A DNA stretch of 64,000 bases from the NCBI RefSeq assembly GCF_002927635.1, contig NZ_PRDS01000002.1, positions 62,001 through 126,000 of the forward strand, written 5' to 3'. The position numbers and the translations under genes are program-made. Positions 22,542 through 24,882 of this stretch are shown here, in pieces; positions within the stretch are counted from its first letter, which is position 1; the number at the start of each line of letters is the position of its first letter. Source of the stretch: Albidovulum inexpectatum. Its GTDB lineage: Bacteria; Pseudomonadota; Alphaproteobacteria; Rhodobacterales; Rhodobacteraceae. The notes under the pieces are model-generated. The model made no database searches. It was not told where the DNA came from and was given only the letters and a program-made list of their open reading frames with translations.

Positions 22542-22754
22542 GGCCGGCCTGCCCCCTGTTGCCGTTTCGAATTGATAGCAACCCTGACGCGAAATGTAAG
22601 TGCGGGCTCGACACAGGGGCGTAGACATGGCATTTCGTAATTGGGGATTGATTTATGTTTATATCCGGCCATCAGGCCCATCGCTGATCCTCGATCGGCT
22701 AGATGCGGCAGGGTCTGGTGACGCGCGGGAATGGTGGATTTCCAGGCGAAGGAC

Positions 22755-23522
22755 ATGGCGGAGCATACGGATCTTGTTGGCCACCTCGAGGCAGTGTTCG
22801 AAGCGGACTCGATAGAAGAGATCTGGGGGCTTCATGTCCGCAAGATGGCCGAATATGGCTTTGATCGGCTGCTCTACGGCTTTACCAAGTTCCGGACGGC
22901 GAACTCCTTCGGCAGTGAAGACGACCTGCTGATGCTGTCGAACCATGATCCGACATATATCGACGAATTCGTGCGCAGCGGGCTGTATCTGCATGCGCCG
23001 ATGGTCCGTTGGGCTGTCGAGAATGTCGGGCCGGGCTCATGGCGGATGATCCACGAGATCGTGAAGTCCGGGATGATGACGTCCACCGAACAGAAGATCC
23101 TGGAGCTGAACCAGCGTTACGGGGTCGTCGCTGGCTACTCCATCAGCTTCAGGGATCTGTCGTTGCGCGCAAAGGGCGCAATCGGGCTGTGCGCCCGCCC
23201 CGGCATGACGCAAGAGGATGTCGAGGTGGTCTGGGCCCGGCACGGCCGTGAGATCACGATCATCAACGACGTGACCCATCTGCGAATCGCCTCGATGCCG
23301 TTTGCTTCATCGCGCCGGGCACTCACGCCACGTCAGCGCGAGGTTCTGGAATGGGTTGCCGATGGCAAGACGATGCAGGACATCGCCCAGATAATGGGGC
23401 TGACCCCTGCAACCGTGGAAAAGCATCTGCGCCTGGCGCGGGAAGCCCTGGATGTCGAGACAACCGCACAGGCGGTGCTGAAGGCATCCTTCCAGAACCA
23501 GATTTTCATCATTCCGCACTGA
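22755..23522 (+). CDS. LuxR-family regulator with autoinducer-binding domain
   Basis: 255 residues from the ATG at 22755; an in-frame ATG at 22731 would add eight residues. The N-terminal half resembles an autoinducer-binding domain (YGFDRLLYGFTKFRTANSF, VRSGLYLHAPMVRWA). The C-terminal HTH is well conserved (LTPRQREVLEWVADGKTMQD, then IMGLTPATVEKHLRLAREAL). No luxI synthase is in the window, so it is a solo in this context. Two palindromes follow its stop (23644-23659 and 23664-23678) and could be its sites or part of an RNA. Confidence 0.9.
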   Translation: MAEHTDLVGHLEAVFEADSIEEIWGLHVRKMAEYGFDRLLYGFTKFRTANSFGSEDDLLMLSNHDPTYIDEFVRSGLYLHAPMVRWAVENVGPGSWRMIHEIVKSGMMTSTEQKILELNQRYGVVAGYSISFRDLSLRAKGAIGLCARPGMTQEDVEVVWARHGREITIINDVTHLRIASMPFASSRRALTPRQREVLEWVADGKTMQDIAQIMGLTPATVEKHLRLAREALDVETTAQAVLKASFQNQIFIIPH

Positions 23523-23604: not shown

Positions 23605-23634
23605 ATGGCATCAATCCCTGTCGAGACCTATACT
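23605..23634 (+). promoter_or_regulatory. Candidate promoter of the structured RNA
   Basis: A -10-like TATACT (23629-23634) lies 18 bases after a -35-like ATGGCA (23605-23610, four of six consensus bases). It points toward the structured stretch at 23641-23914. The -10 is good and the -35 is weak. Confidence 0.35.
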
Positions 23635-23640
23635 TTTCGT

Positions 23641-23914
23641 CAGGTCAGGAAATCCTGACTTCCTTTACGTTACGTAAATAAGCAATACTGTAATCGTTCC
23701 GTGAGTGGTGGCATTAGCCAGGAACACCCCTCCTCGACCAACCCGCGATTTCGGGGGGACGGGAGGGCCGGGAAACCGGACGCTGGGACAGTCGGTTGTA
23801 TTTTTCCAACCGACTGGCTTGGCAGAAAACGCGCCCTGTCCTCATCCCCAACAGGTGCTGGCGCGATTTCAGGCGGTGCAGTTTCAAACGAACTGCACCG
23901 CCTTCTTTGTTCTT
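23641..23914 (+). ncRNA. Candidate structured non-coding RNA
   Basis: The 451-bp gap between luxR (stop 23522) and tsf (convergent, end 23974) contains no convincing gene but a dense run of hairpins. In order they are GTCAGGA-AA-TCCTGAC (23644-23659), TTTACG-TTA-CGTAAA (23664-23678), CCCTCC/GGAGGG (23728-23733 with 23762-23767) enclosing CCCG/CGGG, CCGG-GAAA-CCGG (23768-23779, a GNRA loop), a 10-bp stem at 23789-23816, a GCGCC/GGCGC stem at 23831-23864, and a 13-bp terminator at 23871-23903. It may be an independent sRNA or a 3' UTR of luxR. No match to 6S, tmRNA, SRP or RNase P RNA was recognised. Confidence 0.5.
23871..23914 (+). terminator. Strong intrinsic terminator (+ strand)
   Basis: AGGCGGTGCAGTT (23871-23883), seven-base loop, AACTGCACCGCCT (23891-23903): a perfect 13-bp stem followed by a T-rich tract (TTCTTTGTTCTT). 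It faces rightward, so it ends a plus-strand transcript: either the candidate RNA or the luxR mRNA. Confidence 0.8.
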
Positions 23915-23950
23915 CCAAAAGAAAGACCGGGTCAGCAAATGACCCGGTCT
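23911..23950 (-). terminator. Intrinsic terminator of the rpsB-tsf transcript
   Basis: AGACCGGGTCA (23924-23934) and TGACCCGGTCT (23940-23950) form a perfect 11-bp stem with a five-base loop. Read on the minus strand it is followed by TTCTTTT. It lies 24 bp after the tsf stop, back to back with the plus-strand terminator at 23871. Confidence 0.85.
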
Positions 23951-23973: not shown

Positions 23974-24882
23974 TCAGGCGCCCAGGGTCTTGGCGACCTC
24001 GGCGGCGAAGTCCTCTTCCTTCTTCTCGATGCCTTCGCCGACCATCATGCGGACATATCCGGTGATCTCGACGCCGGCTTCCTTCGCGGCCTGCTCGACG
24101 GTGACGTCCGGGTTCACCACGAATTGCTGACCCAGCAGCGTGTTTTCCGCGATGAACTTTCGCATCCGGCCGGGGATGATGTTGTTGTGGATCACCGCAT
24201 CCGGCTTGGGCTTGGCCGCATTGGCGTTTTCTTCCAGCGCTTTCTGGGTCTGAACGGTGCGCTCACGCTCCAGCAGCTCGGGGTCCAGATCCGCCTCGGA
24301 CAAGGCAAGCGGAGCGGTTGCCGCGATGTGCATGGCGATCTGCTTGCCGATAGAGTCGGCCTTGTCCTTGTCGCCTTTCAGCGCGACCAGAACGCCGATC
24401 TTGCCGATTCCGTCGGCAACGGCATTGTGGACATAGGAAATGATGGTTTCGCCTTCCAGCTGGGCGACACGGCGCAGGGTCATGTTCTCGCCGATGCGCG
24501 CGATCGCATCGGTCAGGATCTCGGCCACCGTCTTGCCGCCAAGCGGGGCGGTCTTGAGGGAGTCAACCGATTCGCCATGGTCCAGTGCCACATCGGTGAT
24601 GTCGCGAACCATCTGCTGGAAGTCCGCGTTCTTGGCGACGAAGTCGGTTTCCGAGTTGATCTCGATCGCGACGCCGCGACCATCGCGAACGGCAACGCCG
24701 ACCAGGCCTTCGGCCGCGACGCGGTCGGCCTTCTTGGCAGCCTTGGCAAGCCCCTTGGTACGCAGCCAGTCGATGGCGGCTTCCATGTCGCCATTGGTTT
24801 CGGTCAGCGCCTTCTTGGCGTCCATCATGCCTGCGCCGGTCTTTTCGCGCAGTTCTTTCACCATTTGTGCGGTGATGGCCAT
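23974..24882 (-). CDS. tsf: Translation elongation factor Ts
   Basis: Nucleotide exchange factor that reloads EF-Tu with GTP. 302 residues with a GGAGAG ribosome site. The N-terminal UBA-like domain ([19 protein letters not shown]) and the EF-Tu contact region with [10 protein letters not shown] are intact, followed by the two core subdomains. It is the second gene of the classical rpsB-tsf operon, separated from rpsB by 113 bp that hold two hairpins. Confidence 0.98.

Follow-up and report, generated by a model that had tools for sequence, protein, structure and literature searches.

A conserved structured RNA gene beside an autoinducer-domain luxR gene in Rhodobacteraceae, preceded by a putative LuxR operator

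The 451-bp gap between luxR and tsf in a 64,000-nucleotide stretch of the Albidovulum inexpectatum genome (hereafter the window) holds a structured RNA gene, a conclusion supported by compensatory base changes, a promoter of its own, a terminator and wide presence in the family; the first-pass annotation, which had proposed a possible new structured RNA gene here, is borne out in this, and the RNA belongs to no Rfam family. We consider it probable, though well short of certain, that the product is a trans-acting small RNA (sRNA) of about 215 nt, which has its own promoter, is dedicated to the LuxR-type receptor encoded upstream and pairs with mRNAs. Comparison among genomes shows the RNA, its fold, its promoter, the palindrome in front of it and the linkage to luxR; from these we infer the binding of LuxR, activation rather than repression, and base pairing. 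What is new here is an RNA without an Rfam family, paired with an autoinducer-domain LuxR; receptor-sRNA pairs are already known in kind.

Results

The sRNA gene is placed on the plus strand at 23696..23910, its start being set by promoter spacing and conservation and its end by the terminator. G23696 is most likely the 5' end, and 23605-23695, which lie inside the range given by the first-pass annotation, would instead be promoter and operator; transcription of the sRNA is predicted from the DNA. The run of stem-loops described earlier is present: the fold of 23644-23914 has a z score of -7.67 and that of 23696-23910, taken from the inferred start, one of -5.51, and in each case none of 200 shuffles was as stable. 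The latter stretch forms six successive hairpins, that is, five hairpins and the terminator, and its minimum-energy fold matches the consensus fold.

Hairpin 1 (23696..23725, plus strand, as are all elements of the RNA) consists of an outer GUUCC/GGAAC stem, an 8-nt bulge, GUGAGUGG, and an inner UGGC/GCCA stem. The outer helix is intact in 152 of 154 distinct members and is the best of 18 offsets; it varies by wobble only, with at most 13 G-U changes per pair among these members, while the inner stem has 4/4 pairs in 99 members and three pairs in 54. When 230 nt from the start, reaching beyond the terminator, were folded, hairpin 1 was seen in merely 23 of 106 loci; for the window RNA this is because bases 3' of the terminator compete, and hairpin 1 is present once that RNA is ended at 23910. 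Hairpin 2 (23728..23767) is a covarying stem made up of consensus helices 3 and 4. Hairpin 3 (23768..23779; CCGGGAAACCGG) is the CCGG-GAAA-CCGG hairpin, present exactly where it had been reported; all 23 aligned RNAs have the same stem here, so that it yields no covariation evidence. Hairpin 4 (23782..23823) is a long covarying stem of 16 pairs, nine of them with two-sided changes (helix 6), and within it sits the 10-bp stem CAGTCGGTTG/CAACCGACTG, which had been recognized before, at 23789-23816.

Hairpin 5 (23825..23870; consensus helices 7 and 8, seen also in the fold) carries a conserved and exposed C-rich loop, CCUCAUCCCCA (23840..23850), whose CAUCCCC core is the proposed pairing region. 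CAUCCCC was found in 66 of 106 boxed loci, against 1.8 in shuffles, and at least four of the six bases of CAUCCC were unpaired in 53 of 69 loci; the 40 boxed loci that have no CAUCCCC count against reading the RNA as a pairing sRNA. The intrinsic terminator (23871..23914) comprises a stem at 23871-23903, in which we count 14 pairs rather than the 13 given earlier, and a T-rich tail that runs to 23914, as had been described. A terminator-like stem with a T run was recognized in 77 of the 106 boxed loci and none in 29; across the family, both ends of the RNA are conserved and the body drifts. The convergent neighbour is tsf (elongation factor Ts; 23974..24882, minus strand, identified as an open reading frame and by tblastn), with its own terminator at 23924..23950 on the minus strand according to a terminator scan. 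In three sets of fetched loci, some of them too short, tblastn found tsf in 22 of 26, 26 of 30 and 72 of 80.

Compensatory changes are seen among relatives. They were counted in an alignment of 23 RNAs (A1), from which L020 (another genus), L022 (of the window's genus, its RNA shortened) and L026 (a degenerate second copy) had been excluded beforehand; since all three are divergent, the structure counts are somewhat favoured. A1 includes three second copies (L023, L024 and L025), the ends of which were assigned by hand, and one RNA from another genus (L021). RNAalifold on A1 returned 53 pairs, 17 of them with two-sided compensatory changes. In the consensus structure 95.3% of cells were paired, as against 36-45% when it was slid by 1-3 columns, a control that favours the structure because the structure was derived from the same alignment. 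Two-sided changes occupied 45 cells versus 14.9 in shuffles, and not one of the five observed structure values was reached in 500 shuffles. This covariation supports an RNA fold.

Searches for known RNAs gave no match at the locus, in keeping with the earlier remark that it resembles no known housekeeping RNA. A cmscan of the whole window against Rfam 15 yielded no match at the gathering score; in the luxR-tsf gap, a search at E<=10 gave six matches, the best at 0.11 and all well under their gathering scores, and 12 loci of named relatives gave no match to Rfam 15. The sole 6S RNA (RF00013) match of the genome lies elsewhere, at G000:C3:166182-166339 (55.4 bits), and no tRNA or tmRNA was found. 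The earlier claim that no convincing open frame explains the gap holds in part: frames do cross it, one of them, from 23701, being a GTG frame of 416 aa, but in 79 of 144 related loci the GTG frame that covers the 5' motif runs into a stop in its first 40 codons (in 48 it has at least 60), and a coding reading was rejected.

The RNA is widespread in the family, called Rhodobacteraceae here on the evidence of its named members. By DNA search over 41 genomes, the stretch is present in 20 of the 22 that belong to the window's genus (the window's own among them), in two of three from other genera of the family and in none of 16 from other families. The covariance model R1, applied at E<=0.001 with strict filters, matched 218 of 394 family genomes and 217 of 393 genera, with one match in nearly every genome matched; on a class-wide draw of 240 genomes it gave two matches, both in Rhodobacteraceae. 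The 17-nt 5' motif, GTTCCGTGAGTGGTGGC, occurs with at most one mismatch in 220 of the 394 family genomes, some matches being due to chance (that in G053, as well as two more, each with one mismatch, in the genome that contains the window). Exact matches in named genomes gave at least 119 stretches, 80 of them listed by name; five or more of the 119 (L100, L107, L125, L166 and L183) lie off the locus and match by chance. Among the matches listed are Ruegeria, Phaeobacter, Leisingera, Shimia, Rhodovulum and Rhodobacter aestuarii, together with sequences labelled Streptomyces (L107, by chance), Sphingomonadales (a MAG, L099) and Alphaproteobacteria (MAGs); in L099, luxR and tsf are arranged as in Rhodobacteraceae.

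A promoter profile was assembled from 163 distinct loci, with the G of GTTCC as +1. The exact 5' motif was the means by which 119 of these loci were found, so its invariance in the profile is partly selected; the unselected figure, at one mismatch or fewer, is 215 of 291 luxR-bearing genomes. The -10 element is AATACT (23684..23689, plus strand), in which A-11 and T-7 each occur in 91% of the 163 loci. TATACT, the -10-like box of the first-pass annotation, does stand at 23629-23634, but it is not conserved in relatives and was rejected as the promoter. Further upstream, the profile holds a palindromic block, GGTAnGGAATCCCnnACTT, at -52 to -34, of the form GT-N2-GG-N4-CC-N2-AC; in the window it is represented by the operator-like palindrome GTCAGGAAATCCTGAC (23644..23659, assigned to neither strand), the proposed LuxR site. 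Both blocks keep a fixed distance to the first G of the RNA, and the centre of the palindrome falls at -43.5 in the consensus and, owing to a single additional base, at -44.5 in the window. Apart from the edge of the palindrome block, the 163 loci show a weak -35 region, and a promoter of this kind, good in its -10 and poor in its -35, looks like an activator-dependent one. The sites from which LuxR-type proteins activate are usually centred at -42.5, and the palindrome, at -43.5, lies close to this position.

In the window's genome, GTMAGGWWWYCCTKAC is matched perfectly at the palindrome site only. One single-mismatch site exists, inside a 445-aa open frame that we take to encode a membrane zinc protease, and no such palindrome was seen in the 230 bp upstream of luxR. 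Two-mismatch sites number 36 and 32, versus 6 and 2 for a reversed control, many of them being counted once per strand; the genome may contain further weak LuxR targets.

The luxR gene (22731..23522, plus strand) encodes a 263-aa LuxR-type regulator in which Pfam recognizes an autoinducer-binding domain, PF03472 (Autoind_bind; E 4e-26, 91.6 bits, cut-off 23), and a helix-turn-helix, PF00196 (GerE; E 2.5e-12, 46.7 bits, cut-off 23.5), the combination that defines autoinducer-binding regulators; the scan returned these two and other HTH models, and no PAS. All 22 genus genomes have it, and of the 394 family genomes 291 do at E<=1e-40. We take the Trp and Tyr of the AHL-contacting pocket to be W57 and Y61 of TraR. 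When LuxR was aligned to QscR, the equivalent places were non-aromatic, and positions 66-70 in 139 LuxR sequences are mostly F/L, L/V, I/V, L and S/T, the mapping of the pocket being uncertain in both instances. The genome carries two luxI genes, on another contig. An AHL is a possible ligand because of these luxI genes, and a non-AHL ligand is also possible because the pocket residues look atypical. In the genus, the luxR promoter (22607-22648) shows CTCGACA, about 17 nt, a -10 of the GGCA type, and GGGGAT at the predicted mRNA start.

The RNA and luxR occur together far beyond the genus. Among the 218 R1-positive genomes, 213 have luxR (Fisher odds ratio 53.5, kinship ignored), while 78 family genomes have luxR without an R1 match and 98 have neither. 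The 5' motif likewise, present in 215 of the 291 luxR-bearing genomes as given above, was seen in only five of the 103 others, luxR having been found without using the RNA. For 18 of the 78 genomes with luxR and no R1 match, the stretch 3' of luxR was fetched; in 14 the palindrome (at most one mismatch) precedes a GTTCC-type start by 51-52 nt, so R1 undercounts the RNA. In the other four, L198 has a palindrome without a recognizable RNA, L201 has an RNA motif but no palindrome at this spacing, and G290 and G375 lack both, tsf being the gene after luxR. Two genomes of the window's genus, G010 and G015, resemble the last two in having kept luxR and lost the RNA, and in none of these four genomes was the palindrome found (at most one mismatch) in the 330 bp after luxR.

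Palindrome and luxR were tabulated in 147 distinct loci, after 10 duplicates, eight loci with a short upstream region and eight without luxR or tsf in the stretch had been excluded. luxR lies at most 2.6 kb upstream of the RNA in 140 of them. The palindrome (at most two mismatches, -56 to -31) is present in 136 of these 140, the exceptions being L050, L112, L147 and L160, and in four of the seven others (Fisher p 0.002, kinship ignored). It is kept in all four loci where luxR is elsewhere or 4.5 kb away: in L014 (G018) and L040 (G241) luxR is on another contig, in L138 it stands upstream at 4.5 kb, and L023 is an additional copy that sits on a short contig from G003, a possibly mixed assembly in which the other RNA adjoins luxR. 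In G018, luxR and the RNA are on separate contigs (C133 and C283; L205 and L208), with the palindrome still at the RNA; the gene that follows luxR there is presumably ArsR-like.

Five R1-positive genomes lack luxR at E<=1e-40, and four were examined (G060, G141, G259 and G289; G253 was not included). The RNA adjoins tsf in all four, none has the palindrome, and the luxR profile found nothing on the fetched flanks; two of the four are absent from the 147-locus table, tsf lying outside the second stretch. The upstream region of these genomes (L206, L207, L259, L260, L262 and L263) is changed, and another regulator may have taken over the RNA. When a luxR at any place in the genome is counted, the palindrome is present in 140 of 144 loci with luxR versus none of four without (p 3.6e-6, kinship ignored); L098, which has neither an adjacent luxR nor a palindrome, was excluded from this count as its genome was outside the search. 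Together these data suggest that the presence of the palindrome follows that of luxR.

Discussion

The arrangement suggests a mechanism in which LuxR, with or without a ligand, would bind the palindrome, centred about 43-44 bp upstream of the start, and bring RNA polymerase to a promoter whose -10 is good and whose -35 is poor. The sRNA would then act on mRNAs, most likely by pairing through the exposed CAUCCCC loop, with the GUGAGUGG bulge as perhaps an additional pairing region, and would thereby pass the receptor's signal on at the post-transcriptional level; the RNA may be the chief output of that signal. A broader proposal, toward which we are slightly more doubtful than convinced, is that of a family-wide module of one receptor and one RNA, in which the one conserved DNA target of an autoinducer-domain LuxR is an sRNA gene through which a small-molecule signal is read, and in which the 5' hairpin with its highly conserved GUGAGUGG bulge is a kind of RNA element not described before.

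The vqmA and vqmR genes are neighbours, and the sensor domain of VqmA is a PAS domain. Our luxR and RNA resemble this pair in that a gene for a LuxR-type helix-turn-helix protein stands beside an sRNA gene, within 2.6 kb in 140 of 147 loci here; they differ in that the window's LuxR has Autoind_bind and no PAS, in the bacterial class, and in that the targets of VqmR are known, and the two RNAs were set side by side by description only. In passages of PMC6451090, VqmA of Vibrio cholerae is a cytoplasmic LuxR-type factor that senses a small molecule, DPO, and induces the mRNA-pairing sRNA VqmR. By analogy, the best reading is that LuxR would switch on one dedicated sRNA as VqmA does VqmR, and the palindrome, its position and its loss together with luxR fit a VqmA-like activation of the promoter. 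The Qrr sRNAs of Vibrio also belong to a quorum-sensing pathway, but qrr1-4 are under LuxO and there are several per genome (passages of PMC6451090), whereas the RNA reported here gives about one match per genome. LuxR solos share the combination of Autoind_bind and helix-turn-helix, and in the window's genome the luxI genes are on another contig; with two luxI genes in the genome, however, this LuxR is no strict solo, and it differs further in having a single clear site, at an sRNA gene.

That the RNA, though real, derives by processing from the 3' UTR of the luxR mRNA, the other origin entertained by the first-pass annotation besides an sRNA, is very improbable. It is on the same strand, 173 bp past the luxR stop, and the interval holds just a weak terminator-like site, 23642-23661, which is the palindrome itself; yet the conserved -10 and palindrome stand between the two at fixed spacing, and the RNA is kept without luxR in the four examined genomes and in four loci where luxR is elsewhere. 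The independent sRNA is favoured because a promoter lies between it and luxR and because it persists without luxR in four genomes. The palindrome might, in turn, serve a different regulator and be linked to luxR through synteny alone, since the order luxR, RNA, tsf is kept in nearly all tabulated loci, so that joint inheritance is expected, and four luxR-bearing loci lack the palindrome. We regard this as quite unlikely: the palindrome was lost with luxR (4/4) and retained where luxR had moved (4/4), the lack of a second perfect match in the genome fits a dedicated local regulator, and the centre is about 1 bp off the -42.5 usual for LuxR activation.

Two further alternatives concern what a LuxR-dependent sRNA would do, and each strikes us as unlikely without being negligible. 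The RNA could bind a protein instead of mRNAs, as a titrator or scaffold like 6S or CsrB, with the 5' hairpin and its GUGAGUGG bulge as the site. The conservation of the 5' 17 nt in luxR-bearing genomes seems to go beyond the needs of pairing with targets that change, and a search with the loop complement in the 22 genus genomes found no conserved mRNA partner; the second conserved element, on the other hand, is an exposed C-rich loop, as expected of a pairing region, and the genome has its 6S RNA at another place. Alternatively, the sRNA could feed back on luxR, its CAUCCCC loop pairing with GGGGAU at the 5' end of the luxR mRNA. GGGGAT occurs in 17 of 18 distinct genus-like luxR leaders (luxR at least 64% identical; L204, a paralogue, and L057, of another genus, excluded) versus 1.7 in shuffles, usually 35-37 nt after CTCGACA, and the longest loop match is at least 7 nt in 15 of the 18. 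But 109 other leaders are at chance (GGGGAT in nine, shuffles 8.3) though CAUCCCC persists, duplex energies of -15.6 barely differ from the -14.7 of shuffled leaders (sd 2.7), and GGGGAT could instead be a start-site element of the luxR promoter. Autoregulation of luxR by the sRNA is thus a lead for the genus rather than a function for the family.

As for targets of the trans-acting sRNA that we favour, the exact complement of the 11-nt loop occurs at 60 places in the 22 genus genomes, 19 of which are the RNA's own locus; blastn and blastp of the surroundings of the other 41 found no gene shared by more than two of the 22 genomes, and a conserved target defined by the exact loop complement was rejected. 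A GUGAG-CUCAU pseudoknot was likewise dropped, the loops being different in many relatives.

StsR, UpsM and CcsR of Rhodobacter sphaeroides are sRNAs of the same family, Rhodobacteraceae. CcsR/cuckoo-type sRNAs expose CUCCUCCC in a hairpin loop; here CUCCUCCC is no conserved exposed element, and CCUCC is paired in the fold and unconserved in the alignment, so membership of this type was rejected. The CCTCC near 23730 does exist as the first-pass annotation had it, but the suggested pairing with ribosome sites is unsupported, as it is paired in a covarying stem and variable. StsR has 72 nt and is under RpoHI/RpoHII according to passages of PMC8307010, and UpsM derives from the dcw 5' UTR according to passages of PMC8625941.

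A literature search, outside which most subscription journals lay, found no description of this RNA. Two surveys report 99 putative sRNAs in Ruegeria pomeroyi (PMC4809877) and 167 in Paracoccus denitrificans (PMC5107571), and the RNA may be an unnamed entry in either. A table of PMC4809877 has riboswitch82, a 188-nt R. pomeroyi RNA, at the luxR gene SPO1974.

If a receptor with an sRNA as its output is indeed present across the family, a core signalling part has been overlooked in the annotation of most of its members. Rhodobacteraceae are major players in the marine turnover of carbon, sulfur and nitrogen, and their quorum sensing has been much studied. The genomes that differ in their losses of receptor, palindrome and RNA amount to a natural experiment.

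Additional copies were seen of both members of the pair. In G009, G016 and G018, a tandem second RNA (L026, L025 and L024, respectively) lies about 300 bp further on; these three have altered loops and no palindrome at the expected place, and are possibly decaying or specialised. A second luxR copy is present in the window's genome (G000:C13:31955-32731; L204), where genome searches found no RNA motif; it is 71% identical with a near-identical helix-turn-helix, and the sequence after it, near the contig end, is one that we take to be a transposase.
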